Source: Candidatus Schekmanbacteria bacterium RIFCSPLOWO2_02_FULL_38_14 (GTDB lineage Bacteria; Schekmanbacteria; GWA2-38-11). From it: a stretch of 39,206 bases of DNA. A program made the translations under genes and the position numbers. A model generated the notes under the pieces. It searched no databases and was not told the origin of the DNA. It was given only the letters and a program-made list of their open reading frames with translations. Of this stretch, positions 4,474-22,740 are shown piece after piece. Positions within the stretch are counted from its first letter, which is position 1. Each line of letters opens with the position of its first letter. The stretch lies in the NCBI GenBank assembly GCA_001790855.1, contig MGDH01000037.1, positions 1,843 through 41,048 on the forward strand. The letters run 5' to 3'.

Positions 4474-4481
4474 TAAAATCC

Positions 4482-6605
4482 TTATTCCAGCTCTTTTAAT
4501 GCTAATTCTGCTTTTTTGTCTTCAGGATTTAACCTTAAACTGGTTTTGAAATTTTTTATTGCCTCATCTTTAGCCCCTTTTAACTGATAAGCTTTTCCGA
4601 GCATATTATAGATTTCATAAAAATCAGGGGCAAATTTTAATGTATTTTTCAAAACCACAATAGCATTATCGTACTCACTTATCTGAATATATATCTGAGC
4701 GAGGTTAATGCCCGCATTAATATGTGATGGCACAGCTTTAAGAGCCTTCTTAAACATCTGCTCAGCATCCTCATAGTTTTTATTCATTCCATATATAATT
4801 CCCAAATTATTTAAAACCCCTGCATTTTTAGAATCAAGCTCAAGGGCTTTTTTAAATTCATTAAAAGCCGGTTGAGTACGGCCTGCTTCTATATAGAGCA
4901 ACCCCAGTTCAATATGGTTGCCTGCTATTTCAGGGTCAAGCTCAATTGCTTTTTTGAACTCTCTCTCAGCTTCTGCAGGCATTTTTAAATCACGGAATGT
5001 TATCCCAAGATTAAAATGAGCGCTGCCGTAATCAGGCATTATTTTTATGGCTTTTTTATAAGCCTCTACAGCAAGGTTCCCCTTTCCAGTGGCTTCATAA
5101 ATATTTCCTAAATTGTTGAAAGCGATATGGTTTTTCGGATCAAGGGCTAACGCTCTTTTAGTATAGAAAAATGCCTTGTCAAAGTTCCATTTTTTTCCAT
5201 AAACAGCTCCCAGGTTCAGATTGGCATCTATATAACCCGGCTCAAGCATAACTGCTTTTTTAAACTCTACAAATCCATTCTCTGTTTTATCAATATCTAA
5301 ATATTCTGCACCCAAATTATTATGAGGCCTTGCCTTCTCAGGAGATTTCTTTACAGCATCACTCCAGAGGGTTAGACCATCCTGCCAGACATGGTTGCGA
5401 TAATAAGTAGCAAGAGAGAAGCAAAGGACAATCAATGCTGGAGTGATAACAATTAAAATCTTGCTCAGTCTGCTTGTGCCCATTAATATTTTATAAATAA
5501 ACAGAGAAAGAAAAATTGAAAACCCAACTGAAGGAAGATAAAGCCACCGCTCACTCAAGACATCCTCAAGGGGAATAATTGAGGTCGGAGATAAAGCTAT
5601 GAAAAACCAGAGAATGGAAAAAGAAATCTCTTTGAAAGTTTTAAAAAACTTAAAAGCCAAATAAAAAATTAATAAAATTGTGACTAATGATAGGAGGGTT
5701 TTAAAATTTATGCCTGTAGTTAATGGAAAATCATGGTCTATGTTCAAATTTATTGGGAAGAAGAGAAGTCTTATATATTCTGTGCTAACATTAATCTGGG
5801 TTAAGATATTGACATAATAATTCCTGTTAAAAGTCGGGTTGCCTAAAGTTCCGTAAAAATATCTCCTCAGAACCATTAAGGCTCCAATTATGACAAAGAA
5901 AGGGAAATAGAAACGGGTCTTTACCTGCCTGCCGGCAGGCAGGGACCCCGTTAATAACAGACCTAAAGGTCTGTTTCTACGAGTAGTTGAAAAGCAAGAC
6001 TCATAGAGAATTAGAATAAATGGCAGAGTTGCTCCTGTTTCCTTTGAACCAATGCTTAAAAGGAAAAAGATAATGGAGGCTAAATAAGAAAAAAACAGCT
6101 TACCCCGTGATGGAACAACGCTTCTGGAATATTTAAGGAATTTAATGAAAAATATCATAGATAAAAGAAAAAATGTAGTGCTCATAACTCCTGAACGGCT
6201 TGAAATATAAGTAACTGATTCAACATTTATTGGATGAGCAACAAAGAACAGGGAGGCTAAAAAAGAAACTTTATGGGTTTTAAATATGAGGTTATAAGAA
6301 ATCAGATAAACAAGAATACCATTTATGATATGAAAAAATAAGTTCACAAGATGGTATCCAAAAGGATTAAATCTATTAATGTAATAGTTCAGAGCAAATG
6401 AAAGGCTTGATAATCCTCTTGTTGGATTTGAAAAGACTATATCATATAAATTATGTAAATCCCTTAGCTTGTAATCAGATAAAATTACCTTTCTGTCATC
6501 ATAGTGAAATGGCACATTAAAAGAATTAGAATAACACAGTATCGCAGTTAATATTATTAATGAATGGGGCAAAAAAACATAAAGCCATTTTGATTTATCT
6601 TTCAT
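4482..6605 (-). CDS. TMTC-like GT-C membrane protein with eight TPRs (paralogue 2)
   Basis: This 707-residue protein has the same architecture as its neighbours: a polytopic GT-C part with D36-D37 in the first loop (FHYDDRKV), HPINVESV at about 124-131, and WLYLPSVGF near the end of the membrane part. Eight TPRs follow at about 422-694. It begins five bases after the upstream paralogue ends, and its stop is eight bases before the downstream one starts, so all three are cotranscribed. About 25 residues (207-232) between ESCFST and the next helix come from palindromic repeats inserted in frame, including PAGRQV. The likely function is polyprenyl-phosphate-sugar-dependent transfer in the periplasm; acceptor unknown. 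Confidence 0.85.
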   Translation of the reverse strand: MKDKSKWLYVFLPHSLIILTAILCYSNSFNVPFHYDDRKVILSDYKLRDLHNLYDIVFSNPTRGLSSLSFALNYYINRFNPFGYHLVNLFFHIINGILVYLISYNLIFKTHKVSFLASLFFVAHPINVESVTYISSRSGVMSTTFFLLSMIFFIKFLKYSRSVVPSRGKLFFSYLASIIFFLLSIGSKETGATLPFILILYESCFSTTRRNRPLGLLLTGSLPAGRQVKTRFYFPFFVIIGALMVLRRYFYGTLGNPTFNRNYYVNILTQINVSTEYIRLLFFPINLNIDHDFPLTTGINFKTLLSLVTILLIFYLAFKFFKTFKEISFSILWFFIALSPTSIIPLEDVLSERWLYLPSVGFSIFLSLFIYKILMGTSRLSKILIVITPALIVLCFSLATYYRNHVWQDGLTLWSDAVKKSPEKARPHNNLGAEYLDIDKTENGFVEFKKAVMLEPGYIDANLNLGAVYGKKWNFDKAFFYTKRALALDPKNHIAFNNLGNIYEATGKGNLAVEAYKKAIKIMPDYGSAHFNLGITFRDLKMPAEAEREFKKAIELDPEIAGNHIELGLLYIEAGRTQPAFNEFKKALELDSKNAGVLNNLGIIYGMNKNYEDAEQMFKKALKAVPSHINAGINLAQIYIQISEYDNAIVVLKNTLKFAPDFYEIYNMLGKAYQLKGAKDEAIKNFKTSLRLNPEDKKAELALKELE
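5924..5975. repeat. Compound palindromic repeat inserted in coding sequence
   Basis: A perfect 20-base palindrome at 5924-5943 (CCTGCCTGCC and its complement) is followed by a second inverted repeat at 5956-5975 (AACAGACCT-AA-AGGTCTGTT). The first is flanked by AACGGGTC and GACCCCGTT as outer arms. The insertion keeps the frame and encodes the SLPAGRQVK stretch, which is known from dispersed repeats in uncultivated-bacterium genomes. The GC content is far above that of the surrounding gene. Confidence 0.85.
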
Positions 6606-6610
6606 TCTTG

Positions 6611-8332
6611 TCAGTTGCCTTCATTTATTTCTTTTAAAATTTTCTTTGCAGCTTCATTTTTTGGATTATAAATCAGGACATTTTCAAAACACTCTTTGGC
6701 AAGCTTCATCTCATTAAGTGACATATATAACATTCCGAGATTCCCATATGCTGCTACAGAATTCGGAACCAGCCCGATTAATTCTTTGTAAGATATTATT
6801 GCTTCTTTTATCATTCCCTTTTTAAAATAATAATTGCCGCTTTCAAACAATGCTACAGCTTCCTGAAGCATTAGACTTTTTTCACCCTTCTTCCTATATG
6901 CCCTGCCGAGATTGGCTCTTGAAGGTGAGTAATGCTTATCAATTCTTATTGCCTCTTTAAAAGATTTTATTGCTTCATTGTAGAGTTTCAGTTTCGCAAG
7001 AGCAACTCCGAGATTATTATGGGTTCTTGCTTTATGTGGAGATTTTTGGGCTGCATCCCTCCATAGCAATGCTTCACTGCTCCATACTTCATTCCTGCTA
7101 AAAGTCAAAATCGAAAAGAATAATATGAGAAGAATTCCTATTACTGATAATCCCCCCTTGCCCCCCTTTGAAAAATGATAACTCTCCCTGTACCCATCCT
7201 GTAATAGCATAATAAACAAAGCCAAGAATAAATAAAATCCAATTCCAGGCAAATAAAGCCATCTTTCACTCAATATATCCTGCAGAGGTATTAACAGCGT
7301 CGGGCTGAACGTTATGAGGAAGAAAAAAACTGAAAAAGCAATCTCGGAACATTTTCTGTATATTATTAAAGCTCCAAAAATTAAAATTAAAATCCCTATA
7401 AATGACAAAAGTGTTTTAATCTCAAGAAATGAACCGGATAAAAAATATTCATGATCTATATTAAGATTCACAGGGAAAATCAGGAGCTTAATATAAGCCC
7501 ATAATGCATTTGCCTGAGTAAGAAAGTTTTTATAATAATCCCTGTGAAAAGTCGGGTTGCCTAAAGTTCCGTAAAAATATCTCCTCAAAACCATTATGGC
7601 TCCAATTATGACGAAGAAAGGGACGTAGTATAATTTATAGTGAATGACATTGATCCTTTTCAGTTTGATAGGCGGGACATTCTTGTCCCGCCATGACGGG
7701 GTTAGAAAACCCCGTCTATCGATAGAGGTAGAAAAGCAGGACTCATAGAGAATTAAAATCAAAGGCAAAGTTATTCCTGTTTCCTTTGAGCCAATACTTA
7801 ATAGAAAAAAGATAATGGAAGTCAAATAAAAACCAGTCTGCTTAAGTCCTGATGCTCCGGTATTTCTAAAGTTTCTCAGGAATATAATAAAAAATATCAT
7901 AGATAAAAGATAAAATGTTGCGCAGAGAACTCCGGAGCGGCTTGAAATATAGCTGACTGATTCTGTGTTTACAGGATGAGAAATAAAGACAAGGGAAGTA
8001 AAAACCAAAACTAAAATATCTCCCTGAAAGGTGATTCTAAGAATAAGAAAAAACAAAACTCCGTTCAAACAGTGTAAAATTATATTTACCAGGTGATATG
8101 AGAAGGGATTAAGTTTTCCCCACCAGAAATTCAACGCAAAAGAGAAGGTTGAAACAGGCCTTGAGGGGTTAGAAGAGAATATTTTTTGGAAATCCTTTAT
8201 ATCCCTGACACTCTCATTTTTAACAATTACCTTTTCATCATCGTAGTGAAAAGGGCTATTGAGCGTATTAGAATAGATTGCAAAAGATACTATGAAAATA
8301 ATAATTATTGATAAAGAAGTTTCACGCCTCAC
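6611..8332 (-). CDS. TMTC-like GT-C membrane protein with shortened TPR region (paralogue 3)
   Basis: The 573-residue product matches the neighbouring proteins: D31-D32 in FHYDDEKV, HPVNTESV at 119-126, the RRYFYGTLGNPTF block also seen in paralogue 2, and RWLYLPGIGF. Its TPR part is short, with about four recognisable units, one of them degenerate (about residues 436-557). The start is GTG at 8332, overlapping the end of the DUF2304 gene by 11 bases, which suggests translational coupling. Two loops carry repeat-derived residues: 203-236 (RRGFLTPSWRDKN type) and the FSKGGKGG segment before the last helix. The fewer TPRs suggest a different acceptor or partial decay. Confidence 0.85.
   Translation of the reverse strand: MRRETSLSIIIIFIVSFAIYSNTLNSPFHYDDEKVIVKNESVRDIKDFQKIFSSNPSRPVSTFSFALNFWWGKLNPFSYHLVNIILHCLNGVLFFLILRITFQGDILVLVFTSLVFISHPVNTESVSYISSRSGVLCATFYLLSMIFFIIFLRNFRNTGASGLKQTGFYLTSIIFFLLSIGSKETGITLPLILILYESCFSTSIDRRGFLTPSWRDKNVPPIKLKRINVIHYKLYYVPFFVIIGAIMVLRRYFYGTLGNPTFHRDYYKNFLTQANALWAYIKLLIFPVNLNIDHEYFLSGSFLEIKTLLSFIGILILIFGALIIYRKCSEIAFSVFFFLITFSPTLLIPLQDILSERWLYLPGIGFYLFLALFIMLLQDGYRESYHFSKGGKGGLSVIGILLILFFSILTFSRNEVWSSEALLWRDAAQKSPHKARTHNNLGVALAKLKLYNEAIKSFKEAIRIDKHYSPSRANLGRAYRKKGEKSLMLQEAVALFESGNYYFKKGMIKEAIISYKELIGLVPNSVAAYGNLGMLYMSLNEMKLAKECFENVLIYNPKNEAAKKILKEINEGN
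7151..7172. repeat. C-rich dispersed repeat inside GT-C/TPR gene
   Basis: TCCCCCCTTGCCCCCCTTTG stands out against an AT-rich gene and encodes the linker FSKGGKGGLS on the minus strand. KGGKGG-type translations of this repeat are common in genomes with dispersed repeats. It occupies the loop before the last membrane helix. Confidence 0.6.
7671..7716. repeat. Twin hairpin repeat inserted in coding sequence
   Basis: Two perfect nine-base-arm hairpins lie side by side: GGCGGGACA-TTCT-TGTCCCGCC (7671-7692) and GACGGGGTT-AGAA-AACCCCGTC (7695-7716). The palindrome CTATCGATAG follows at 7716-7725. All are in frame and encode part of residues 203-236 of the paralogue 3 protein. Confidence 0.85.
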
Positions 8333-9661: not shown

Positions 9662-11191
9662 TCAGCCTTCTCTGTTTGTAAAGGTTGACAGAAAGAACTT
9701 TAGTTCATGACGCTGAAAAATAAAAATTAATATTAAATATAAACCAATGCTTAAAAGCATTGTTGAGAATAATGGAAGAAAAAGGTTTAAGTCAAAATAT
9801 TTTTGACTGATAAAATAGACTATCACAGTGGATAGAACTGCAAACAGCGAAATCCATTCTATCCCTTTCAAATATTTGACAAAAATATCCTTTTCAAGAT
9901 GTGCTGTCAATTTAAATAAGAGGACTATGAATATAAAAACGGTATAGACTGACTGGGCAACTGCAAGTCCAGTCAGCCCAAAGTAATTTTTTAAAAAAAA
10001 GCTTGAAAAAAGATTTACTAAAATACTAAACAGTCCTATCAGAAATAAAGTTCCTTCCTTGCCTACGGCATAAAATGCTGAAAAAAGTATTAAGTTTAAG
10101 CTGTAAACCAGTATCAGAATAATATAGCCAAGAATCAGGTTTCCAAGTATTTCTATATCTTTGTTATTAAGAGAAGAGCTCAAGAAAAGCCTGAGAATGG
10201 GGGTTCTGAAAACAGAAAGAAAAAGAATAAGAGGTATAATAAAAATTATATTATACCTGATTCCTAAAGACAATGTTTTTGAGAACCTCGTTTTATCCTC
10301 CTTCATCCTTGAAAGGGAAGAAAGAATTACCAGCGAAATAGGATTTGATATTACACTTACTAAAAAGCCTGCTCCTGTTGCTGCGTATGCAAACAGAGTT
10401 GCAGAGCCTTCAGGAAAATAAGATGACAGGCTTTGTCCAATTGCATAATTTAAATTTCCGGTGACATAAATGCCTGAACCGAGAATCGTTGTTTTGAAAA
10501 TATCAAGAAAGGTAAATTCTGAATCATTCTTGAAAAACCTTGGCTTATATCCTATTTTTAGCAGATAGATTAATTGGAACAGGCATGAAAAAAAAGATGA
10601 TACCAGCATTCCGATAGCCACTGAATCAATTCCCAATAAATTTCTGAAAGTAAAAATTAAGCAGAGCCACAGGAAATTGCCAAAAGCATATGAATAGGCA
10701 GGTATGGAAAAGTTACCTATAGCCCCAAGAGCACTTGCACACAAAAAACCGATTCCCTGGAAGAAACCTGAAAAAGCTATTATTTTTATAAAATAGGATG
10801 TTTTGGCAAGAGTCTGGGAATCAAATCCCACCCCTAAAAAAGATGATATATAAGAAGAGAGTAACAAAACGGAAACAGAAAACCCTATTACTATTGATAA
10901 AACTGAGACAGCGATTTTGTTAAATACAGCAAAAAATCTTTCTTTGTTTTCAATATCTGCCATTAACGGCACTACTGAATATCTGAGGGTTGAGAGGAAA
11001 GTAGCGAAAAAAACAAAGAGTACATTTGCTGCGAAAAAAGCGTCAGTTTCTTTTGCTGCTCCGAAAAAAAGGGCTATGCAAAAATAACAGAGTAGTCCAA
11101 AAAGAGATGCAAAAAAACTGCCAACACTTGCAACCCAAGTATTTCTGACAACTTTTTTGCTGGTATCTAAATTTAATTTTTCTATTGTCAT
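9662..11191 (-). CDS. MurJ/MviN-family lipid flippase
   Basis: The 509-residue protein is almost entirely membrane helices (about 12-14), close to the usual MurJ length. The N-terminal block ALFFGAAKETDAFFAAN (about 40-56) matches the family signature around the second helix, and PLMADIE and ALGAIGNFSIPAY also fit. The family flips lipid II or other lipid-linked oligosaccharides across the inner membrane. In this glycan locus it may serve a polyprenyl-linked surface glycan rather than peptidoglycan, which cannot be decided from sequence. No good ribosome site precedes the ATG. The methyltransferase gene upstream ends 15 bases away. Confidence 0.8.
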   Translation of the reverse strand: MTIEKLNLDTSKKVVRNTWVASVGSFFASLFGLLCYFCIALFFGAAKETDAFFAANVLFVFFATFLSTLRYSVVPLMADIENKERFFAVFNKIAVSVLSIVIGFSVSVLLLSSYISSFLGVGFDSQTLAKTSYFIKIIAFSGFFQGIGFLCASALGAIGNFSIPAYSYAFGNFLWLCLIFTFRNLLGIDSVAIGMLVSSFFSCLFQLIYLLKIGYKPRFFKNDSEFTFLDIFKTTILGSGIYVTGNLNYAIGQSLSSYFPEGSATLFAYAATGAGFLVSVISNPISLVILSSLSRMKEDKTRFSKTLSLGIRYNIIFIIPLILFLSVFRTPILRLFLSSSLNNKDIEILGNLILGYIILILVYSLNLILFSAFYAVGKEGTLFLIGLFSILVNLFSSFFLKNYFGLTGLAVAQSVYTVFIFIVLLFKLTAHLEKDIFVKYLKGIEWISLFAVLSTVIVYFISQKYFDLNLFLPLFSTMLLSIGLYLILIFIFQRHELKFFLSTFTNREG

Positions 11192-11206: not shown

Positions 11207-12079
11207 CTATTCTTTTTTTGCTAAAGCGAGTAGATAGTGCCCTAATCCAACACGAACATCTAATTGAATTTTTTTAGCAATGAGAGCAAAAGTCCGGAAA
11301 AAAGGATTAAGATTCTTAAAAATCCAGTCTTCCCTTCCAGGAACTCCGAAACCTTCTTCTTTAAGAAGTAAAATTTTAAATCCTGTTTTTTTTAGCAGAT
11401 ACGCTAAAGTTTCTTTTGTAAAAAGGTATAAATGGTAGCTTCTTGGAGCAAATTTTTCTTCTTTTGTTGAACGCAGGAAAAGATTAAGGAGAAAATTTCT
11501 TATCTTAAAGTTGTTTTCATTTGGGACTTCAATTAATAAATACCCTGACGGCTTCATAATTCTTTTTATTTCTTCTAAAGTTATCAGTGGATTAGGGAGA
11601 TGTTCTAATACATGACTCATATTTATTAAGTCAAAATAATCTTCTGGAAAATTAGCTTTTTCAACCCCTCCTTTCCTAACTTCAATATCTAATTTCTTAG
11701 ATAATACCTGAACTGCCCACGAAGATACTTCAACTCCATGAATATTCCATCCTCGCTCTTTTGCTACTTTTAGAAAACTTCCCGTCCCACATCCCACATC
11801 CAGTACTCTTCCAACTGGCATTTCTTTTAAAATAGTGTTGAACCGATTTATGAAAAAATTTTCTTGCTCCTTGGCAATTTTTTCATAAACATGGTAATAG
11901 TTTTCTCTATAAATTTCCTCATTAATAAGATATACTAAAGTCCTTGGATTCTGATACATAAGACTGCATTTTGAACATTTTACAATATTTATGTTTCCTT
12001 TGGAATAGATGTGGTAAAAATTTTCAGAATTACAAATTATACAAGATATATACTCTTTCATATCTAATTTATCTAACAT
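11207..12079 (-). CDS. Zinc-ribbon SAM methyltransferase (copy A)
   Basis: The 290-residue protein begins with a zinc ribbon (CIICN at 13-17, CSKCSLMYQNPR at 35-46). A class I methyltransferase domain follows, with the SAM loop VLDVGCGTG near 92-100, the acidic strand end GVEVSS and the MSHVLEHLPNP block. This arrangement resembles the N-terminal two thirds of sugar C-methyltransferases but lacks their C-terminal domain (those proteins are about 400 residues). The target may be a sugar, lipid or small molecule. The ATG at 12079 overlaps the stop of the radical SAM gene by one base. It is about two-thirds identical by eye to the gene at 13455-14312, so the pair arose by duplication. Confidence 0.8.
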   Translation of the reverse strand: MLDKLDMKEYISCIICNSENFYHIYSKGNINIVKCSKCSLMYQNPRTLVYLINEEIYRENYYHVYEKIAKEQENFFINRFNTILKEMPVGRVLDVGCGTGSFLKVAKERGWNIHGVEVSSWAVQVLSKKLDIEVRKGGVEKANFPEDYFDLINMSHVLEHLPNPLITLEEIKRIMKPSGYLLIEVPNENNFKIRNFLLNLFLRSTKEEKFAPRSYHLYLFTKETLAYLLKKTGFKILLLKEEGFGVPGREDWIFKNLNPFFRTFALIAKKIQLDVRVGLGHYLLALAKKE

Positions 12080-13458
12080 TAATATTTTTTTCTTTTTTTA
12101 AACAAACGATATGGTGCAATAAGTTCCTGAATTTTTTTTAGGATTTCTTTAAGGACCAGAGTCGTTGAATCTGGTTTCAATAATTCCAAAATTACAATAT
12201 AGATATTTCCTAATAGCCATAGCAGTTTTATCTCCATTTTTGAAAGAGCATCTGTTCTAATAGTGCAATTGTGTGCATCAAATCTTTCATAATCCTTTTC
12301 CATTAAATGACCTTTTTGAATAAGAATTTTCTGCAGCTCTGTTCCTGGGAATGGAGATGCCATGGAAAAGCCAACGTAAAAAGAATTCACTTTCTTTATG
12401 AATTTAAGGGTATCTATTACTGTAGAATAATTCTCACCTATATTGCCTATCATAAAGGAGCCAACTGTCTTGATTCCAGCTTCATGAGTTAATCGAAAAG
12501 CTCGTTCCAGTTCTTCTATTGTTATTCCTTTCTTCATTTTATTGAGCATAGTCTGGTTTCCACTTTCGCCGCCAAAAAGAATAACCTGAATGTTAGCTCT
12601 TCTTGCAAGCTTTAATAGGTGAGAATTGAGTAACTTCTCATTTGCTCGGAAAGCAGCCTTATAAACTATCTCCTCATTTAATTTATTCTCTATGATTAGA
12701 TTTAATAATTCTTCAGCCCATTCTTTGTTCAAATTAAAAGTGTCATCTTGGATGTATATTTCTCTCATATGATAGCGATTATATAGCCATTTTATCTCCT
12801 CGATAACCTTTTCAGGTTTTCTGAACCTTGTGTGTTTTCCGAAAACTGAAACATTACAGAATGTGCACTGGAAGGGACAACCCCTTGATGCCATTATGTA
12901 CATACATGGCTTCTGGATAACAGGTGGTCCTCCTGTGAATCTGTACAGATCTTTAACTAAATCAAGGTCAGGCAGTGGTAAGTAGTCAAGATCAGCAACA
13001 AAAGGTCTTGGGTCATTAACAATTCCTTTAAAACAAATTCCTTTGATTCCTTCTAAGTTTTTCCCATCCACAATCTCTGAAAATGTATGCTCTCCTTCAC
13101 TAAAGACTACTACATCAATATTTGGAAAGTTCTTGAAAAGTTCTATCTTTAACGCAGAAGAATGAGGTCCTCCTGCTACAACACGAATATCTTTGCTGAC
13201 CTCTTTCGCAAGGTTTGAGATAATCCTTGCTGATTTTGTCTGGTAGGTATTCATTGTAATTCCGACTATGTCTGGAGAAAATTCCAGGATTTTTGCTTTT
13301 AATCCTTTAATGTTAATACGCTCATTAGTGAGATGGGTTATGCAGACATTGTGACCTTCCTGTGAGAGCATTGTCCCCATAAGCACAAGAGCTCCGGAGG
13401 GATATATTTCAGTCTGTTGCGGGACATTTTCTTCTGGGTTTATAAGCAGGATATTCAT
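12079..13458 (-). CDS. Cobalamin-binding-type radical SAM enzyme (1)
   Basis: The 459-residue protein has an N-terminal B12-binding-like Rossmann domain (about 1-150) with the GGPH motif at 96-99 and SEGEHTF. The iron-sulfur cluster motif is CX3CX2C at C194, C198 and C201. The DxHxxG cobalamin ligand motif is absent, as in many class B relatives. Enzymes of this type methylate unactivated carbons or rearrange lipids and tetrapyrroles; the substrate here cannot be told. It overlaps the upstream methyltransferase by four bases (ATGA) and the downstream one by one, so the three are translationally coupled. Confidence 0.85.
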   Translation of the reverse strand: MNILLINPEENVPQQTEIYPSGALVLMGTMLSQEGHNVCITHLTNERINIKGLKAKILEFSPDIVGITMNTYQTKSARIISNLAKEVSKDIRVVAGGPHSSALKIELFKNFPNIDVVVFSEGEHTFSEIVDGKNLEGIKGICFKGIVNDPRPFVADLDYLPLPDLDLVKDLYRFTGGPPVIQKPCMYIMASRGCPFQCTFCNVSVFGKHTRFRKPEKVIEEIKWLYNRYHMREIYIQDDTFNLNKEWAEELLNLIIENKLNEEIVYKAAFRANEKLLNSHLLKLARRANIQVILFGGESGNQTMLNKMKKGITIEELERAFRLTHEAGIKTVGSFMIGNIGENYSTVIDTLKFIKKVNSFYVGFSMASPFPGTELQKILIQKGHLMEKDYERFDAHNCTIRTDALSKMEIKLLWLLGNIYIVILELLKPDSTTLVLKEILKKIQELIAPYRLFKKRKKY

Positions 13459-14312
13459 TTATTATTTTTTGCTAAAGCAATAAGATAATGCCCTAATCTA
13501 ATGTGAACATCTAATTGGAGTCTCTTAACGAAAAATGCTAAGGTTCTGATAAATGGATTAAGGCTCTTGAGTATCCAGTCTTCTCTGCCCTTGACTCCAA
13601 ATCCTTCTTCTTCAATTAACAAAAGCTTAAATCCTGATTTATCTATCAGGCTTGCAAGGGTGTCTTTTGTAAACAGGTATAAATGGTAGTTTCTTGGGGC
13701 AAACTTTTCTCCTGTGCCGGAATGTAAGAAAAGATTTAGAAGAAAATTTCTTATCTTAAAATTTTTCTCATTCGGAACTTCAATCAGTAAATACCCTGGT
13801 GGCTTTGTGATTCTTTTGATTTCTTTTAGAGTTTTAAGCGGGTTAGGCATATGTTCTAATACATGACTCATATTCACTAAATCGAAATATTCATTTGGAT
13901 AATTTGCTTCTTCTACTGTTCCTTCAGTAATTCCAATGCCCAATTTATCAATTGATGCATGAGCTGCCAGTGAAGATACTTCAACCCCATATACATCCCA
14001 ACCTAAATCTTTAGCCACCTTAAGAAATCCTCCGGTACCGCACCCTACATCCAGTACTTTTCCAGTTGGTATTCCTTTCAAAACAGTCTCAAATCTATTC
14101 CTGAAGAACTTTTCCTGATCCTGTGCTATCTTTTCATAAATTTTATAATAGTCCTTTCTATTGGTTTCTTCGTTTACAAGATTCTGAGAGACTCTCGGAT
14201 TCTGGTACATGAGTCCACATTTAGTGCATTTGACTATATTTATACTTTCACGGGAATAGATGGATGAAGAATTATCAGAATTACAAATCACACATGGTAC
14301 ATACTCTTTCAT
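13455..14312 (-). CDS. Zinc-ribbon SAM methyltransferase (copy B)
   Basis: The chosen start is the ATG at 14312, where MKEYVPC aligns with MKEYISC of copy A; an in-frame TTG at 14366 would add 18 residues but has no ribosome site. The 285-residue product has the zinc ribbon C-x2-C...C-x2-C (about 7-33), SAM loop VLDVGCGTGG, EVSS after the second strand, and MSHVLEHMPNP. It lacks the extra C-terminal domain of sugar C-methyltransferases. The C-terminal LDVHIRLGHYLIALAK block is also nearly identical to copy A. It sits between two radical SAM genes, giving two tandem radical SAM-methyltransferase pairs. Confidence 0.8.
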   Translation of the reverse strand: MKEYVPCVICNSDNSSSIYSRESINIVKCTKCGLMYQNPRVSQNLVNEETNRKDYYKIYEKIAQDQEKFFRNRFETVLKGIPTGKVLDVGCGTGGFLKVAKDLGWDVYGVEVSSLAAHASIDKLGIGITEGTVEEANYPNEYFDLVNMSHVLEHMPNPLKTLKEIKRITKPPGYLLIEVPNEKNFKIRNFLLNLFLHSGTGEKFAPRNYHLYLFTKDTLASLIDKSGFKLLLIEEEGFGVKGREDWILKSLNPFIRTLAFFVKRLQLDVHIRLGHYLIALAKNNK

Positions 14313-14393
14313 TTTCTGTTTTGATATCCTATTTTGAAGCCTCAAGCTTTTGAAGGTCCAGCTCAAAGAGACTTTTCAACATAAAAAATCAGG

Positions 14394-15830
14394 TTACATT
14401 CTATTGCTTTCCCGCCCTTTTATTAAGAATTCTAAAAGTGCGAGAAAACCATTTAAATAAATTCTTAGATGAGTAAGTGTTTTTATCTTCTTCAGATAAG
14501 ATAACACAATTCTTGGTCTGAAATAGAATTTCCTGAATGCCTGTTTGTTAAAAAAAACCAGCTTATCCTCTGTTAACTCTTTGGGGACAAAGACCGGAAA
14601 CCAGCCAGAAAGCATTTTCCAGTCGTTGTTGAAGGTACCAAACTCACCTGCTTTCTCATACAAAAGAGAACCAGGGAAGGGGGTCATAAAACTAAAATGG
14701 GCTTCTTTTAAAGGAAGGGAGAGGGAAAACTTTATGGTTGCATTGATGCTATCTTCAGTTTCGGTGGGATGACCAATAATAAAGGTAGCACAGGGCTCTA
14801 TGCCTGCTTTTTCTGTTTCTAACACAGCCTTTTTAATCTCCTCCAATGTGATTTTTTTATTTATTACATCAAGTACTTTCTGTGAGCCACTCTCAATCCC
14901 GTACCAGATCTGCCAGCAGCCGGCTCTCTTCATCATATTGAGCATCTCAGGGTTTATCATATCTGCCCTTCCCATGCAGGTCCAAACTATATCCAGTTTC
15001 TCCGTTATTAATAAATTACATAATTCCATGAGTCTCTTTTTTATTGCAACGAAGTTATCATCTCTGAATTGAATCTCTCTAATTCCATAATTTTGATAAA
15101 GGTTTTTTATCATTGCCATAACATAAGAAGCGGAATAAAAGCTTACATTATTTCCGAACATACTCCTGTCACAAAAAATACATTGTCCGGGACAACCCCT
15201 TGATGTAACCAGCATAGAAGCTGGGATTTTTTTTAAGGTATGGACAGGAGGACAATAATATTTTGCTAAATTAGGCAGGAGATCCCATGCAGGAAATGGA
15301 AGGTTATCTAAATCCCTGACACGCTCCCTTAAGCCGGTAAATAGAAGATTTCCATTTTCCCTTAAAAAAAGTCCCTTTACCTGTCTTAAATCCTTTCCTG
15401 CTGTAAGGGATGATATGAGTTCTGATATAGTATAATCGCTCTCTCCAAAGCAACCAATATCAAACTGGGGGTAGAGTTGTAATGTCTTTTCAGGAATTGC
15501 AGTAAAATGAGGACCGCCGATTATTATTTTGACCTTATTAAGGTGTTCTTTAATCAAAGAAGCAACTTTTGATGTATTTCCAATGCTTGATGTCACGGCA
15601 GTTAGCCCTACAAAATCAGGATTTTTCTTTATAGTCAGTTGTGCTACTTCCTCGCAACTCAAAGAAAGAGCTGCTCCGTCAAGGATTTTAACATCAAATC
15701 CCCTTTCTCTCAGGCTTGCAGCCAAATTTGTCAGACCCAAAGGAGGTGTTTGACCCCCACTTTGATACTTTAATCCATAGCGCTCCATTATGGTCAATGG
15801 TGGATTAATAAACAATATTTTTGGATTCAC
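14394..15830 (-). CDS. Cobalamin-binding-type radical SAM enzyme (2)
   Basis: The 478-residue protein starts at GTG (15830), with AGAGG about ten bases upstream. The N-terminal domain (about 1-160) has the B12-binding fold features PPLGLTNLAASL, GGPH (105-108) and GESDYT, but not DxHxxG. The cluster-binding cysteines are C213, C217 and C220 (RGCPGQCIFC). IWYGIESGSQKVL and the later FIIGHPTET belong to the radical SAM barrel. The C-terminal 80 residues are basic and helical, as in enzymes acting on membrane-associated substrates. Substrate unknown. The downstream partner is methyltransferase copy B. Confidence 0.85.
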   Translation of the reverse strand: MNPKILFINPPLTIMERYGLKYQSGGQTPPLGLTNLAASLRERGFDVKILDGAALSLSCEEVAQLTIKKNPDFVGLTAVTSSIGNTSKVASLIKEHLNKVKIIIGGPHFTAIPEKTLQLYPQFDIGCFGESDYTISELISSLTAGKDLRQVKGLFLRENGNLLFTGLRERVRDLDNLPFPAWDLLPNLAKYYCPPVHTLKKIPASMLVTSRGCPGQCIFCDRSMFGNNVSFYSASYVMAMIKNLYQNYGIREIQFRDDNFVAIKKRLMELCNLLITEKLDIVWTCMGRADMINPEMLNMMKRAGCWQIWYGIESGSQKVLDVINKKITLEEIKKAVLETEKAGIEPCATFIIGHPTETEDSINATIKFSLSLPLKEAHFSFMTPFPGSLLYEKAGEFGTFNNDWKMLSGWFPVFVPKELTEDKLVFFNKQAFRKFYFRPRIVLSYLKKIKTLTHLRIYLNGFLALLEFLIKGRESNRM

Positions 15831-15847: not shown

Positions 15848-17791
15848 CTATTTTTTAAAAATCTCAAGTTGTTTAAGATTTTCCTTTGCAGGATTAAAGC
15901 TTGGGTCAAGTTTTAAACACTCTTCCCACTCTTTCCGTGCCATTTCATAGTTCTTTCCTATAGTACAAAGAATTGCAAAATAATTATGATAATTAATATT
16001 TGAAGGAAAGTTCTGCACAAGTTTCTGAAACTTTTCTATTTCTTCATAATAGAGTTTTATATAAAGTGGTCCTTGCCTCTGTAAGCTGTATCCTCTTATT
16101 AAGAATGTTGAAATCAAAGATTTGAAAGGTTCTCTTCTTTCATTAACATTGAATGGCCTTAATATTAATGTATTATCTATCTTGTCCATTATAGTATAAT
16201 TTTCAAAAATGTATTCGCTCAATTCAGGGCTATATTCCTCACCTGATATTCCATCTATTTCCTGGTCAAGTTCATAAATAATCTTTTTTGTACCATTCTG
16301 AATTAAATCTCTTATTGCTTCTTCCCTCATCTTTTTTGTAATTGCAAGATAACCCAAGCAGTATCTCGTGGGATTAACTCTGTCAGCCAGAAAATAATAT
16401 ACAGCCTGCTGGGGAAAGATAAAGACAGGTTCATTATAATCCGTCTTTTTAGAAATATATGAAATTACCTTTTCAAAATGGTTTGCCTGCTCAGTTAGTG
16501 TCCTGACACCTCCTCCCCTTTTCAAGTTTAGTGTTGCTAAACCTTCTTCATTTACATTTGTTTTTGTTATCCAATAATTAATTAACCTTTCTTCCTCAAA
16601 AAAGTTTTTAAGGTTAAAAACCTTCATAAAATAAACTAAGAACATAATCAGCAAAAGTATCATAAAAACAACCTCAAATTTCATAACGGGCTTTAAGCTT
16701 TTAATGTGTAAAAGATCCTTTGCCCTGATGAAAAGTCTTTCCATGAAATAAATACTGATTAATATAGCCGGAGATATGGAAAAGAACAGATGATGAATAT
16801 CTGATCTTCCCAGAGCAGTTCTGAAAGCGAGAATCCCAAAGATAAGAACAAACAGGATCTTTATTTTTTCTGTATTAAATTTTTTTTGTATCCCTGAGAT
16901 AACTAAGTAAATTAAAGTTAATATATAAATTCCAATTGGAAGATAAAAGAGAAACAAGGTATCTGTTATCAGGGATAAAAGTTCTCTGACTGAAAAAATA
17001 CTGTTAGAAATATCAATAACAGGAAAAGGTAATCCCTGGAATCCGGAAGATACATAGATGGGGTATTTTATCAAAACCTCAAAAAAAGGTTTTAAGGCTC
17101 CTACAGAATAGAAATAAAGAAAAAATAATGATGGGAAAATAACTATCCCTGAAAACATTAAAAGGGAGGATTTTAGAAAAACTTTTTTTGGAAATTCATC
17201 AGACAGAGAGAAAACTAATAATGAGCCAAATGCTCCGGCCAAGGCACAAAGAGTTGTTTCTTGTGAAAATAAGAATGCGATACCAAGAAAGATGCCTGTA
17301 GAGAAAATCCAGAAGTATTTCTTCTTCTCTAAAAATTTAAAAATTATCAAAAGAATTATAAGCCCTAATGATACTCTGATATGATTAAATAAAAACTGAG
17401 AGAGTAAAATTATTGAAAAAAATATCACAAAAAACCTATTTTTCAAAAGTGATCTTGCAGTAAGATAACCAAGTATCTTTCCAAGTCCTCCCAGTAAATA
17501 AAAATATATCTTCTGAATTAATATAGTTGCGCCAAAAATCTTGAAGGTAAAAAAAAGGGGATAAATCTGCAAAGGGGGGTAGGGAATCCAAACATCCTTA
17601 TATAGAATTTTGCCTCTCATAAGTTCATTTACTACTGCAGAGAATTGTCCATCATCCCATGGTATTATAAAATTTTTAAAAGGTGTTGGAGTGTAAAAGA
17701 AAATAAGAACTGGTAATAGGATATAGTCGATAAAATTCCAGATTATTTTTGAAAAATTATTATTTTGAAATGTCTTCATTTGTAGAAACAT
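15848..17791 (-). CDS. GT39-like GT-C membrane glycosyltransferase with C-terminal TPR
   Basis: The 647-residue protein has an acidic pair, D46-D47 (IIPWDDGQF), in the first outside loop, then GKILYKDVWIPYPPLQIYPLF (60-80). That combination is characteristic of GT39/ArnT-type enzymes that use polyprenyl-phosphate sugars. About ten membrane helices run to residue 400. A soluble periplasmic part follows and ends in one TPR-like unit (about 600-640). The start overlaps the upstream small membrane-protein gene by 32 bases; ATG at 17779 is an alternative that shortens the overlap. The stop lies 17 bases before the next gene. Donor and acceptor are unknown. Confidence 0.75.
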   Translation of the reverse strand: MFLQMKTFQNNNFSKIIWNFIDYILLPVLIFFYTPTPFKNFIIPWDDGQFSAVVNELMRGKILYKDVWIPYPPLQIYPLFFTFKIFGATILIQKIYFYLLGGLGKILGYLTARSLLKNRFFVIFFSIILLSQFLFNHIRVSLGLIILLIIFKFLEKKKYFWIFSTGIFLGIAFLFSQETTLCALAGAFGSLLVFSLSDEFPKKVFLKSSLLMFSGIVIFPSLFFLYFYSVGALKPFFEVLIKYPIYVSSGFQGLPFPVIDISNSIFSVRELLSLITDTLFLFYLPIGIYILTLIYLVISGIQKKFNTEKIKILFVLIFGILAFRTALGRSDIHHLFFSISPAILISIYFMERLFIRAKDLLHIKSLKPVMKFEVVFMILLLIMFLVYFMKVFNLKNFFEEERLINYWITKTNVNEEGLATLNLKRGGGVRTLTEQANHFEKVISYISKKTDYNEPVFIFPQQAVYYFLADRVNPTRYCLGYLAITKKMREEAIRDLIQNGTKKIIYELDQEIDGISGEEYSPELSEYIFENYTIMDKIDNTLILRPFNVNERREPFKSLISTFLIRGYSLQRQGPLYIKLYYEEIEKFQKLVQNFPSNINYHNYFAILCTIGKNYEMARKEWEECLKLDPSFNPAKENLKQLEIFKK

Positions 17792-18272
17792 AGCCTTTTT
17801 TCAATAAAAAGAAATTAAACAATTTTATAAAGAAAATTATAAAAGCTAAAAACACCAATGAAAAGTTAATTTCTTTTTTATATATAATTATCCAATACAG
17901 TGCAAGAAAAGAGGGTAAAAAATCAATAGATGAAATGCATAAAATCTTTTCAAGAGAAATTTTGAAATATTTTGATATGAAAGATGAATAAAAAATCCAT
18001 GAAAGCCATGTAAGAACTCCGACTGAACTTATAAGAATCAAACTTAAAATATAATAGAAAATCTCCTTTTGCTTTGGGTAACCATAAAGATTTGTTAACC
18101 CAACTACATCAAGTTCATTTTTATAAGGTTTGAATTGAATTGGGAAATTATAGACGAAAACCAGAAGGAAATAGATTCCCAATACAAATCCTGAGCCTAT
18201 TATTATTAAATTATATAAAAAATTATCTTTTTCTGATGATAACCGAATTGCTTTTTTTATAAAATCTTTCAA
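17760..18272 (-). CDS. Small four-helix membrane protein, unknown function
   Basis: I do not recognise a family. The 170-residue product has four likely membrane helices (about 21-42, 74-95, 117-131 and 136-154) with a polar loop at 47-70. It starts at TTG (18272), with GAGG about nine bases upstream, and its end overlaps the start of the GT-C gene by 32 bases. The tight coupling suggests a subunit or accessory of that transferase. The hydrophobic, AT-rich composition fits its neighbours and I see no sign of a frameshift joining the two. Confidence 0.6.
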   Translation of the reverse strand: MKDFIKKAIRLSSEKDNFLYNLIIIGSGFVLGIYFLLVFVYNFPIQFKPYKNELDVVGLTNLYGYPKQKEIFYYILSLILISSVGVLTWLSWIFYSSFISKYFKISLEKILCISSIDFLPSFLALYWIIIYKKEINFSLVFLAFIIFFIKLFNFFLLKKGYVSTNEDISK

Positions 18273-18307: not shown

Positions 18308-19933
18308 TTATTTTGGAATTTGTGATAGAAAATTTTCCATAGTCTTATTATAAATTAACCAGTCAACTTGATAGATTTCAAAAGGAGCTCCATTAGTACT
18401 TATATCATTTGGGACTAGAAAAGAGTGAACAAGCCTTAAGAAAGGGAATGGAGTGTCATTAATAAAGTTTTTCCTCGAGTAGAGCAAATAATTAGACTTT
18501 TTGAACTTCATATATTCAATGAGATATATCCAATACCTCAAATCTGTTTTAACCCCTGGACTATGACCAATCATTTCATGAGTGGTTAGCCCAACTGTAT
18601 CTATAGTTTTTCTTCCAGAAAAAAGCTTTGTTGCTCCAATAGGATCTGAGGTTATAACTGTTTCTGGGGGAAGATTCTTTGAAATCCATTCCGCAACAGA
18701 AACGTGAGCATCATTTACGTTTTGTATATGTAATGGATATTCATTCCGTGCAAAATTAAAAAAATTCAAACAGAAATAACAAAAAAGAAATAAAAATGGC
18801 AGGATTATAATTCCTTTAATACAGATCAAATGATTATGGGACTTAATATCTTTTGTCAAATTTTTATAAACTGATTCTACTAAGAAAAATAATCCGAAGC
18901 CAGCACCTATTGAGATTATTGGGTCATAAGGAGTGATATACCTGAAGACCCATCCAAGATAGATTGACTTGAAAGCCTTCCATGTGAAAAATGCAAAAAC
19001 TGTAGTTGCCCAAAAGAAATTTTGAAATGGTTTAGCTTTCTTAGCAATAGCAAAGATTATCCCAATAGTAGCAAAGAGGTATAAGAAGATATGGTATGAA
19101 TCAAGCTGGTCTGCAATTGCTAAGTATCTTTTCCATAGGTTTGCAAAGTCATATCCTGGTCCAACATATATGTAATAGGGTGTTGGGAAAAGAAGTCCTG
19201 TAAAATACCAATAGATAATTAGAGGTATAACCGCTGTTGATATTGTTATAAGGGCGAATCTCATTAGTTCTTTTGGTTTAATCAAAGTTCTTTTGCTATC
19301 AAAAACCTTTGATATCAGACCAAAATGTTCAAGAGATAGAAAAATCATAGCCATTGTCGGGAAGATATACAGCTCTTCCCTTGCCCATCCACATAACCCA
19401 AAAGCAAAAGGGCTGAATCTCAATATTCCTTCATCATATTCTTTGAAAAAAGTATGGGCTGCAAGCAGTATCATGAAGGCTGTTAGCGGTACTTCCATAC
19501 CACTTACAGCACCCCATATTAACTTGGAATTAAGAAGAAATAATATCCCACATATTAAAGATACATATTGAGATTCAAATAGAAATTCTGAGAGTTTTAA
19601 AAGAAAATATAAAGATAAAGCAAGAAGCGAAATGCCAACTAAATAATTGGAGAAGAGGAGAGCTTTATAAATATTGTAGAAAAAAAATCTGGAAATAAAA
19701 AATACTGGAGTTAGGATTACATACCATAAGAAGCCTGTCACCCCAGCACTTTTTTCCCCAATGTTATATTCAAAAAAGTGCCCTGAAGCAGCATTTTTTA
19801 TATAATTTAGATATATATAACCGTCATCTGTGGGCAGGTTGAAGGTGCCTGTATGGTTATAGTTTTCCCAAAGGAAGAAGATGGCCTCGATAAACAGGAT
19901 TAAAAGTAAAATATATCTAAAATGTTTAGACAT
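18308..19933 (-). CDS. GT-C membrane glycosyltransferase, AftB-like
   Basis: The 541-residue protein carries the pattern DDGYIYLNY...EYNIGEKSAGVTGFLW (D36-D37 through W70). This is close to the DDAFI..RYA..EGHGLVxNPGERVEGYT signature of AftB-type arabinofuranosyltransferases and their bacterial GT-C relatives. About ten helices are followed by a short periplasmic tail (from about residue 400) with SVAEWISKNLPPETVITSD, typical of this group. The likely role is transfer of a sugar from a lipid carrier onto a glycan or protein. ATG at 19933 overlaps the stop of the radical SAM gene by eight bases. Confidence 0.75.
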   Translation of the reverse strand: MSKHFRYILLLILFIEAIFFLWENYNHTGTFNLPTDDGYIYLNYIKNAASGHFFEYNIGEKSAGVTGFLWYVILTPVFFISRFFFYNIYKALLFSNYLVGISLLALSLYFLLKLSEFLFESQYVSLICGILFLLNSKLIWGAVSGMEVPLTAFMILLAAHTFFKEYDEGILRFSPFAFGLCGWAREELYIFPTMAMIFLSLEHFGLISKVFDSKRTLIKPKELMRFALITISTAVIPLIIYWYFTGLLFPTPYYIYVGPGYDFANLWKRYLAIADQLDSYHIFLYLFATIGIIFAIAKKAKPFQNFFWATTVFAFFTWKAFKSIYLGWVFRYITPYDPIISIGAGFGLFFLVESVYKNLTKDIKSHNHLICIKGIIILPFLFLFCYFCLNFFNFARNEYPLHIQNVNDAHVSVAEWISKNLPPETVITSDPIGATKLFSGRKTIDTVGLTTHEMIGHSPGVKTDLRYWIYLIEYMKFKKSNYLLYSRKNFINDTPFPFLRLVHSFLVPNDISTNGAPFEIYQVDWLIYNKTMENFLSQIPK

Positions 19934-21356
19934 GCTTTGATGAAGAGAAAAAAAAGCGTTTGATATTATTAACTCCTATTACAATGAGTTCCTTAATAGA
20001 GACATTTTCACTTTTAAAATAACAATATCCATAACTGATTAGAAATAATATATCAAAAATAAAATTAGAAGGGAATTTAATAATTTTCTTTATGAAAACT
20101 TTTAAGGAAGAAAATTTAACAGCCCAGAAAAATAATTTCTGCAGATTCTCAAGCTCTCTGCTTGATTCAGATTTGAGGAAGCTTTTTTTAAAAAATGAGG
20201 ATTCAGATAAGTCAATATTCTTATCAAAATATCCCATAGTTATGGCAAATTCTCCCAAAACTGTCTTAGGGTAAGGCTGAAAAATTGAACACCAGGGATA
20301 ATCTGTTTTAATCCTTGTGTTTATGTCAATAGTCTTAAAAGCCTGCTCAAGAGTTTCGCCGGGCAGCCCCATCATATTATATGTTCTGAAAGGAATTTTA
20401 TATTTTTTGAGCAATTCTGCAGTAATCATTATTTCTTCATCTGTTACCCCTTTAGAGAGCAGGTTATTTCTCAACCCTTCATCTCCTGACTCGATTCCGA
20501 AAAAAACTCTTATGCAGTTGGCTGCCTTCAGCCACTTTGCTATATCTTCATCAAACATATCAGCCCTTATAAGGCAAATGAGAGGAAGGTTTATTTCTTT
20601 TTTATATTCAGAGAAAAATTCTCTAATCCAATCTTTATCAAAAGTGAATGTATCATCCATAATATATACAGTTTTAAGAATATATTTACTACTTACTTCC
20701 TTTATTTCTGTGATTACATTTCCTACACTTCTCCGTCTGACATATTTTCCCTTACCTGCATATATTTTCTTTAGCGAGTGATTATAGCAGAAAGAACAGT
20801 TAAACGGGCATCCGCGGGCTGTAATGAAAGCCTTTTGTGATTTATTAAGAAAAGGATATTTACTATAATATAAATCTCTGTCAGGAAATGGTTGCCGGTC
20901 TAAATCTTCTATAAGAGGTCTTGGTTCATTCTTTATAATCTTTCCATCAGGTGACTTGAACCAGAAATTTTTTATGGCAGAAACATCTTTGCCATCAGAT
21001 AAGTTTGCAGAGAGTTCAAGTAAAGAAAACTCACCTTCGCCAATACAGACGCCATCTATTTCAGGTTCATTTATTATTTCAGGGAAAAATGTTGGATGAG
21101 GTCCACCGAAGAGAATAAAAGCGTTAACTGATTTTTTTATCTCTTTTGCAAAGCTAAGAGACCACTTATGCAATCCTGTGGAACATGAAAATCCGACAAC
21201 TGATGGGTTGTATTCAATTACTTGCTCTAACATTTTTTTATTCCCATTCCCAATAAATACTTCAACTTCATGTCCTCTCTCTTTTAGGATAGAGGATAGA
21301 TACATTAACCCTAAGTATTCATATGCTATATTCTGTATAAATGCTACTTTTACCAT
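19926..21356 (-). CDS. Cobalamin-binding-type radical SAM enzyme (3)
   Basis: The 476-residue protein has the B12-binding-like domain (about 1-150) with GGPH at 84-87, GEGEFSLLEL and no DxHxxG. Cluster ligands are C183, C187 and C190 (RGCPFNCSFC). VFFGIESGDEGLR and MMGLPGETLEQAF follow in the barrel. The C-terminal third is hydrophobic and basic (about 395-470) and could associate with membrane. The gene directly follows the methyltransferase relic at 21358-21569: the relic stop and this ATG are one base apart. It therefore once formed the same methyltransferase-radical SAM pair seen elsewhere in the locus. Substrate unknown. Confidence 0.85.
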   Translation of the reverse strand: MVKVAFIQNIAYEYLGLMYLSSILKERGHEVEVFIGNGNKKMLEQVIEYNPSVVGFSCSTGLHKWSLSFAKEIKKSVNAFILFGGPHPTFFPEIINEPEIDGVCIGEGEFSLLELSANLSDGKDVSAIKNFWFKSPDGKIIKNEPRPLIEDLDRQPFPDRDLYYSKYPFLNKSQKAFITARGCPFNCSFCYNHSLKKIYAGKGKYVRRRSVGNVITEIKEVSSKYILKTVYIMDDTFTFDKDWIREFFSEYKKEINLPLICLIRADMFDEDIAKWLKAANCIRVFFGIESGDEGLRNNLLSKGVTDEEIMITAELLKKYKIPFRTYNMMGLPGETLEQAFKTIDINTRIKTDYPWCSIFQPYPKTVLGEFAITMGYFDKNIDLSESSFFKKSFLKSESSRELENLQKLFFWAVKFSSLKVFIKKIIKFPSNFIFDILFLISYGYCYFKSENVSIKELIVIGVNNIKRFFFSSSKHV

Positions 21357-21357
21357 T

Positions 21358-21569
21358 TTAGATTACACGGGCAAAAACTAACATTTCTCCTGTTCGCAAA
21401 AGAATGTTTTTATTCAGAAATTTATGATTTAATTCTCTTGTGATTGTGGATTCATAAAAACGAACCCATAAAATAAATTGTTTGCTACATAAAAGTTATT
21501 TTTAAAGTATAAAATATCTATCTTTTCTGAATTACAAAGGTTGCACATGGTAGCTTTTGTTTCATTCAT
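21358..21569 (-). pseudogene. Relic of a zinc-ribbon SAM methyltransferase with its middle deleted
   Basis: The ATG at 21569 overlaps the GT9 stop and opens a 46-codon frame to TAA at 21429. Its residues (MCNLCNSEK...YGFVFMNPQ) align with the N-terminal zinc ribbon of the methyltransferases at 11207 and 13455 (CVICNSDN...CGLMYQNPR). The second cysteine pair is lost. In the next frame, up to the TAA at 21358-21360, the sequence ending LLRTGEMLVFARVI resembles their C-terminus (RLGHYLIALAK). About 200 residues including the SAM loop are missing and the two ends are out of frame. This is inferred from short similarity; a small functional peptide is the alternative. Confidence 0.55.
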
Positions 21570-22740
21570 GACAAAGGTATTTTTTTACAATTGTTTCATA
21601 TACTTCTTTAAAGGTAATCTTTTTTAAACATTGGTTATCACCATTACAAACTGCTGTTTTAACATTATAGACACTCAAACATGGACTACAATAAATACCT
21701 TTGTAAAAGATAATATGTTTATCATCTGAAGAGTAATGTCCATATAATGATGGAGTTTCAGGACCAAAAAAAGAAACTGTAGGTGTTCCCAGAGAAACAG
21801 CGAGGTGGAAAGGCCCGCTATCATTCGTTATAAACAGTTTGATTTCATCAAGCAGTGCTATCAATCCGGCAAGGTTTAATTTTCCTGCCAGATTTAATAT
21901 GCTATCTTTAAAATTAAGTTCCTTGACTGTTTTCTCCACATAATCTTTATCTTCCTCACCTCCTATCATGATGATTTTTGCATTATGAGAATTTATTAAT
22001 TCTGATATCAATTTTCTAAAGTTTTCCTCAGGCCATCTCCTTTCATAACACATATCACTGGAGTTGATGTTAACACCAATAATTAAATTATTTTCAGTAA
22101 AACCTTCTGATTTTAGTAATTCCTTGATGTATTTTTTCTCTCTATCTGATGGTTTGATTTTATCAATTTCCTTATCATTTGACTCAATGCCAAGGGGTGA
22201 GAACAGAGCAAGGAAAATATCAATAATATGCCTGTGGTGATTATAATAAATATGGTCAGTCAGTAAGTCTCCTCTCCACATCTGCCTTGAGTAAAACCCG
22301 ACCCTTCTTTGTGCACTGCTTAAATAGTTTATTATAGTAGAAAACTTTGAAAAAAATTCCATGTCTACAGATATATCAAATTGTTCTTTTCTAATCTTCC
22401 ATAAGGCTCTAAGTGTTCGGAAGAAGAAGGCGGAGAAATCTTTTGTTGGCAGATAGATGTAGTCATCAGCAATTTTCAAGATATTGCAAATCTCTTCATT
22501 GCTCGAGAAGGTCAAGAAAGTAATATTGGCATCAGGGAATGATTTCCTTAGTGCCCTGAAAGCAGGAGTAGCTAAGAGTATGCTTCCTATTCCAAAGTAC
22601 TTCATCACTAAAATCTTTTTAACTTTATCTTTTCTTTTTCTAAATTTTGGAAAAATCCAGATTTTGTTAAAGAGAGTCAATAGGATACAAATAGGTATTC
22701 CAAGCCATTTATCTATGGCTTTCATCTGATTTATTTTCAT
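21562..22740 (-). CDS. GT9 glycosyltransferase, heptosyltransferase-like (1)
   Basis: The 392-residue protein has the two-lobed GT-B fold of ADP-heptose:LPS heptosyltransferases. It shows KKILVMKYFGIGSILLATP (41-59) at the acceptor side and the donor-site motif NDSGPFHLAVSLGTP (306-320). A hydrophobic N-terminal stretch (13-31) suggests membrane attachment. The C-terminal cysteines (C355, C358, C367, C373 region) form a pattern common in LPS-core GT9 enzymes. It probably adds heptose or a related sugar to a lipid-linked core on the cytoplasmic side. It overlaps the second GT9 gene by four bases (ATGA). Confidence 0.8.
   Translation of the reverse strand: MKINQMKAIDKWLGIPICILLTLFNKIWIFPKFRKRKDKVKKILVMKYFGIGSILLATPAFRALRKSFPDANITFLTFSSNEEICNILKIADDYIYLPTKDFSAFFFRTLRALWKIRKEQFDISVDMEFFSKFSTIINYLSSAQRRVGFYSRQMWRGDLLTDHIYYNHHRHIIDIFLALFSPLGIESNDKEIDKIKPSDREKKYIKELLKSEGFTENNLIIGVNINSSDMCYERRWPEENFRKLISELINSHNAKIIMIGGEEDKDYVEKTVKELNFKDSILNLAGKLNLAGLIALLDEIKLFITNDSGPFHLAVSLGTPTVSFFGPETPSLYGHYSSDDKHIIFYKGIYCSPCLSVYNVKTAVCNGDNQCLKKITFKEVYETIVKKYLCHE

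Follow-up and report, generated by a model that had tools for sequence, protein, structure and literature searches.

A B12-binding radical SAM gene, the relic of an adjacent methyltransferase and a family 9 glycosyltransferase in a putative surface-glycan cluster of Candidatus Schekmanbacteria

We have analysed a 39,206-nucleotide stretch (hereafter the window; G000:C37:1843-41048) from the 2.68-Mb, 99%-complete genome of Candidatus Schekmanbacteria bacterium RIFCSPLOWO2_02_FULL_38_14 (G000), whose family and order have just three sampled relatives. The window carries genes for four B12-binding radical S-adenosylmethionine (SAM) enzymes, termed RS1 to RS4, together with two zinc-ribbon methyltransferases, MTa and MTb, and the relic of a third. 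A unit of an RS3-type gene, a zinc-ribbon methyltransferase gene and a glycosyltransferase family 9 (GT9) gene recurs in three phyla; in the window RS3 and the GT9 gene GT9a are present, and the methyltransferase is reduced to the relic. We give an even chance to the reading that the cluster makes a surface glycan and that the RS3-type enzyme and its methyltransferase both modify one and the same sugar, with the arrangement of MTa and MTb around RS1 and RS2 being a lineage-specific rearrangement.

The RS3 unit and its relic in the window

RS3 (19926–21356, on the minus strand like all window features below unless marked; 476 amino acids) is followed in the coordinates by the relic (21357–21569) and by GT9a (21562–22740; PF01075). 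The ∼213 bases between RS3 and GT9a hold the start of a methyltransferase gene (the first ∼45 codons) and its tail (the last ∼20 codons, in another frame), with the middle deleted. In G002, which belongs to the same order, the equivalent place reads GT9, methyltransferase, RS3, GTC2, a 160-amino-acid protein and GTC1 (GTC genes encode membrane proteins described below), and the methyltransferase abutting the RS3 ortholog is an intact, 283-amino-acid, zinc-ribbon protein. The tail of the relic is 60% identical to that protein over 20 residues (the C-terminal codons; E 2.6e-6), while in its head, which matches the G002 zinc region, half of the zinc site is preserved. The two top-scoring segments reach 64 and 49, each above 42, the maximum of 1000 Markov shuffles. 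The initial annotation, made from the DNA letters and open reading frames (ORFs), had noticed a methyltransferase relic at 21358–21569 beside a third radical SAM gene, and this relic is real on the strength of the G002 match and the segment scores. It is what an internal deletion has left of an ortholog of that intact methyltransferase.

We searched 386 genomes with RS3 and found matches in 63; 30 loci were kept, one of them the window itself. Profiles made from the window proteins and A1 served to call families, and the ORFs came from a simple longest-ORF picker. The four closest RS3 loci outside the window (69%, 51%, 50% and 49% identity; G002, G287, G174 and G312 hold the intact unit) all have, as immediate neighbour in the same orientation, a zinc-ribbon methyltransferase gene, and GT9 lies no more than one or two genes away, whereas none of the other 25 has a zinc-motif methyltransferase adjacent (in two the picker missed the radical SAM gene). 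The GT9 homologs are nearer GT9a than GT9b in all four loci (GT9a has 72% identity to that of G002 and 35–41% to those of G287, G312 and G174). Counted over three query sets, adjacency is 4/4 in the RS3 clade versus 1/73 among other B12-binding radical SAM genes (Fisher p = 3.7e-6; 77 genes, with the window's own and duplicates left out and three loci giving no radical SAM ORF). The p value becomes 5.7e-5 if G174 and G312 are counted once, and 1.1e-3 if G287 is also dropped. The one positive outside the clade (L040, in G002) involves a very distant methyltransferase.

Gene order in the unit varies (GT9–methyltransferase–RS3, GT9–RS3–methyltransferase or RS3–methyltransferase–GT9) while the adjacency and the GT9 gene are kept, so adjacency has outlived rearrangement. 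The unit in G312 also has the small membrane protein and GTC1, that in G174 has GTC1, and that in G002 has both. The unit spans three phyla because the phylum of G174 (three sampled genomes) excludes G287, and both share only their domain with G000. In a methyltransferase tree (a quick tree of 110 of the 113 collected rows, three weak rows without a radical SAM neighbour having been dropped), the RS3-linked methyltransferases cluster together (SH-aLRT 92), separately from MTa and MTb; an insert common to the latter two and their G002 relative is missing from the RS3-linked proteins.

The domain content of the encoded proteins fits these family names. RS1 to RS4 all exceed the gathering scores for B12-binding (PF02310) and Radical_SAM (PF04055), and the cysteines of their CxxxCxxC iron–sulphur motif (C183, C187 and C190) are invariant in 19 sequences including these four; by sequence they are B12-binding radical SAM enzymes, with predicted cobalamin binding and SAM cleavage. 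MTa and MTb match Methyltransf_23 above the Pfam cut-off, and their zinc-site cysteines (C13, C16, C35 and C38 in MTa numbering) are invariant across 14 relatives. Alignments to solved nucleoside diphosphate (NDP)-sugar 3-C-methyltransferases begin at profile position 7 or 26; Pfam gave no zinc-domain match at E<=1e-3.

Linkage weighed against chance neighbourhood

A serious alternative, which we rate somewhat below even, is that the genes are incidental neighbours: surface-glycan clusters would be mosaics rich in both families, whose tailoring genes are shuffled without sharing a step. In its favour, the pairing is rare elsewhere. We found no B12-binding radical SAM gene in the flanks (1254 ORFs) of 80 named zinc-ribbon-methyltransferase loci; 36 of the 80 come from Poribacteria, probably owing to one such row in A2, the methyltransferase was called in 75, flank lengths vary and G000 was left out. 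No fusion with a methyltransferase was seen among 172 radical SAM ORFs. The families at large are thus rarely neighbours, an outcome that the initial annotation had itself named as telling against its proposal; the survey of co-occurrence and fusion that it suggested has favoured linkage in the RS3 clade but not in these wider samples. Among 20 loci chosen by MTb, a B12-binding radical SAM gene lies beside a profile-matching methyltransferase in three (L238, L240 and L251), with the zinc motif in L238 and L251, the latter being an RS3-clade case; 20 loci chosen by RS2 likewise gave three, one with the zinc motif.

The same alternative draws on the 22 B12-binding domain matches in the whole 2.7-Mb genome, and on the methyltransferase tree, where the label ‘beside a B12-binding radical SAM gene’ changes five times, versus 8.8 in shuffles (0/500 as low), so that this state is clustered but probably arose several times. 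The adjacency of 9/113 rows is not an unbiased frequency, since the rows mix methyltransferase-selected and radical SAM-selected loci. In shuffles of the window cluster (18 genes), the observed placement of all three zinc-ribbon methyltransferases (the relic counted) beside a radical SAM gene has p = 0.054, with MTa and MTb not independent; the window layout alone hardly exceeds chance expectation. Against incidental neighbourhood stands the adjacency of the RS3 clade, at a far higher rate than among other B12-binding radical SAM genes and kept despite changes of order. RS3 with its relic, the third pair of the window, is the best case for linkage. The proposal that the two enzymes act together finds support for RS3 and the ancestor of the relic, but none as a general rule and little for MTa and MTb with RS1 and RS2.

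Several observations weigh against joint tailoring of one sugar by an RS3-type enzyme and its methyltransferase, besides the empty flanks of the named loci. RS3 survives in the window without its partner, and the pair is therefore separable. Members of the RS3 clade are few (4/386 genomes besides G000), and the clade was delimited after the data had been seen; more distant relatives of RS3 (<=48% identity), among them those of G001 and G003, have no adjacent methyltransferase. Extra searches gave matches in 2/3 genomes of the phylum of G174, in 1/184 of the phylum of G287 and in 1/27 of its order, where no genome other than G287 reached the cut-off; they added no new member, so the linkage test is small. 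The G287 contig is only 4.1 kb, and mis-binning is possible. The nearest order-level relative of MTa and MTb, in G002, lies beside genes for a MurJ-type flippase, a family 2 glycosyltransferase (GT2) and TPR proteins, with no radical SAM gene in 18 kb, a pairing that also suits incidental neighbourhood. Finally, the top named models are HpnJ and BchE for RS1, RS2 and RS4, and HpnJ for RS3, and given these a non-methylase chemistry is, by sequence, not less likely. York, Zhang and Booker write that methylation is the presumed activity of most cobalamin radical SAM enzymes, but that HpnJ, OxsB, PbsB and BchE are not methylases (PMC13142503).

Duplication of the methyltransferase and the surrounding cluster

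The order RS2 (14394–15830; 478 amino acids; PF02310 91.5 bits, PF04055 78.8 bits), MTb (13455–14366; 303 amino acids), RS1 (12079–13458; 459 amino acids; PF02310 57.2 bits, PF04055 86.5 bits), MTa (11207–12079; 290 amino acids; PF13489 106.6 bits) in the direction of transcription is as initially annotated. The overlaps of 1–4 bases described between these genes are present at two of the three junctions, with 1 base (TAATG) at RS1/MTa and 4 bases (ATGA) at MTb/RS1, but RS2 and MTb are separated by 27 bases if MTb starts at the TTG of the ORF list, or by ∼81 if it starts at the ATG at 14312, which is the likely true start.

MTa and MTb are indeed near-duplicates, sharing 67% amino acid identity and 74% DNA identity over 864 positions, and both look kept by selection, because their dN/dS is 0.167. 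RS1 and RS2 are as clearly different as had been said, with 32% amino acid identity and no similarity reported by DNA comparison. The radical SAM tree places RS1, RS2, RS3 and RS4 in separate groups and leaves RS1 without a sister, its best matches all being at ∼30–34% identity. At E<=1e-65, RS1 has no close ortholog across the 386 genomes other than in G000 itself; for RS2, 20 of them, G000 included, hold relatives at E<=1e-85. We therefore reject duplication of the pair: the methyltransferase alone was duplicated, and RS1 now lies between the copies. We also considered RS2-like and RS1-like neighbours in G088 and G228, and dropped them as absent from the best matches of RS1; the methyltransferase-like ORF intervening in G228 is on the opposite strand and without the zinc motif, and the hint of pairing in these genomes was dropped. 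At the place of RS2–MTb–RS1–MTa in the window, after GTC1, G002 has a gene for a 917-amino-acid YfhO-like membrane protein (L080, 509–3262).

The initial proposal of a duplicated radical SAM–methyltransferase cassette acting on consecutive carbons could point to the alternating order and tight junctions, but it is refuted as a pair duplication by RS1 and RS2 not being sisters and by the methyltransferase being the sole recent duplicate, and as a whole we consider it improbable. Least probable of all is that the methyltransferase assists the B12 enzyme (for instance by handling the corrinoid or a methyl intermediate) and is not a separate tailoring enzyme, since the similarity to the ‘corrinoid protein-associated methyltransferase’ model CpaM is weak (MTa 44.7 and MTb 33.0 bits, against a cut-off of 180), most zinc-ribbon methyltransferases have no B12-binding radical SAM gene nearby, and RS3 persists here without one.

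In our best reading the cluster serves lipid-linked oligosaccharide or lipopolysaccharide-like assembly, with GT9, GT2, GT-C-like membrane proteins and a MurJ-type flippase, and four different radical SAM enzymes, RS1 to RS4, together with class I methyltransferases modify its product. Transcription runs from a flavin adenine dinucleotide (FAD) amine-oxidase-like protein (29186–30502; PF01593) through a large membrane protein, MTc (26338–27132; PF08241; a methyltransferase of another type in which no zinc ribbon was seen), GT2 (25302–26327; PF00535), RS4 (23920–25299; 459 amino acids; Pfam domains; G002 ortholog at 57%), GT9b (22737–24002; PF01075), GT9a and the relic to RS3. Beyond RS3 come GTC2 (18308–19933; GT-C-like as we infer; G002 ortholog, E 2e-228), the small membrane protein (17760–18272; homologs in G002 at 50% and in G312 at 25%, E 5e-10) and GTC1 (15848–17791; a large membrane protein, likewise taken as GT-C-like; homologs in G002 at 57% and in G312 and G174 at 24–25%); Pfam gave no match for these three. 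The RS2 to MTa genes follow, and then the MurJ-type flippase directly downstream of MTa (9662–11191; PF03023 139.6 bits), a GT2, a 121-amino-acid protein and three related large proteins. A search for RNA families within the window found none.

The three successive large proteins (2275–8332), of which the first was tested with Pfam and has C-terminal TPR repeats, have a counterpart in a row of four in G002. An ORF of 52 amino acids (1653–1811), a possible modified-peptide precursor, ends in GGGTFF and contains a P-x-L-x-x-Y stretch resembling the leader of such precursors; its G002 relatives are at C15:16745 (immediately downstream of the TPR genes, the position that it has in the window too), on C3, and at two sites near each other on C1. 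Two SPASM-type radical SAM genes lie on opposite strands (34536–35621, plus; 35772–36869, minus), adjoined by a 461-amino-acid protein that Pfam does not name and that we take to resemble coenzyme A or AMP ligases. G002 has 26 RS1-like genes at E<=1e-20, and the order of G000 and G002 seems to have B12-binding radical SAM genes in abundance.

Putative chemistry and related systems

If RS3 and its methyltransferase do tailor one sugar, as we infer, RS3 would methylate or rearrange an unactivated carbon by means of cobalamin and a 5'-deoxyadenosyl radical. A nearby hydroxyl (or carbon) would receive a methyl from SAM through the methyltransferase, before or during chain building by GT9 and GTC1. 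A sugar is the likeliest substrate because of the glycosyltransferase setting, with a lipid or peptide as alternatives. In G000 the methyltransferase beside RS3 was lost and a second zinc-ribbon methyltransferase lineage was duplicated around RS1; MTa and MTb may serve RS1 and RS2, replace the lost enzyme or act separately. More tentatively, and with doubt that every part will hold, we suggest that a cross-phylum unit of B12 radical SAM enzyme and zinc-ribbon methyltransferase, tied to GT9 and GT-C-like proteins, makes a methyl-branched, O-methylated surface sugar, with partner swapping here, in that the duplicated lineage came to serve other B12 radical enzymes.

Judging from the loci surveyed, genes for B12-binding radical SAM enzymes without assigned chemistry appear to be numerous next to glycosyltransferases in uncultured bacteria. 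A unit kept through rearrangement is a defined gene set, through which a B12 radical step would be connected with a sugar of the cell surface. Such pairs can nonetheless be broken, as the relic makes plain, which argues for caution when inferring function from adjacency. Our literature search, with most subscription papers outside its reach, found no paper describing the RS3–methyltransferase–GT9 unit.

Among known systems, MgmA, TsrM, OxsB, CysS, HpnJ and BchE resemble RS1 to RS4 in their B12-binding and radical SAM domains and overall fold. The structures nearest to the RS3 model (pLDDT 91.8) are MgmA (9ccb, the best), TsrM, OxsB, AprD4 and CysS, mostly methylases plus one ring contraction and one sugar dehydratase. 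RS1 to RS4 nonetheless fall far below every listed curated cut-off of the named NCBIfam families (HpnJ 133–210 versus 577.6; BchE 97–219 versus 481.35; TIGR04295, B12_rSAM_oligo, 48–96 versus 400). AprD4, a sugar-acting radical SAM diol dehydratase, is the best solved-structure sequence match of RS2 and the second for RS3, but at most at 134.4 bits versus a cut-off of 500. GenD1 and GenK of the gentamicin pathway (PMC5461906) demonstrate that methylation of sugar carbons is within the reach of B12 radical SAM enzymes, and the SAM-dependent N-methyltransferase GenN belongs to the same pathway; theirs is an antibiotic pathway, and we liken them by description and not by sequence.

For the methyltransferases, the DVU_1556 model gives MTa 54.5 versus a cut-off of 155. 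The best matches of the MTa model (pLDDT 82.6) include the NDP-sugar 3-C-methyltransferases KijD1, MtmC and TcaB9, which combine an N-terminal Cys-rich zinc region, of which MTa has a putative counterpart, with a class I methyltransferase domain such as that of MTa; the structural matches are full-length, with a TM-score by query of 0.52–0.59, and the profile matches reach the zinc region. Those enzymes have ∼416 amino acids, whereas MTa and MTb, at ∼14% identity, lack the C-terminal part, their sequence matches ending at profile position <=251. The structural model thus suggests that MTa may work on a plan similar to that of the NDP-sugar 3-C-methyltransferases.

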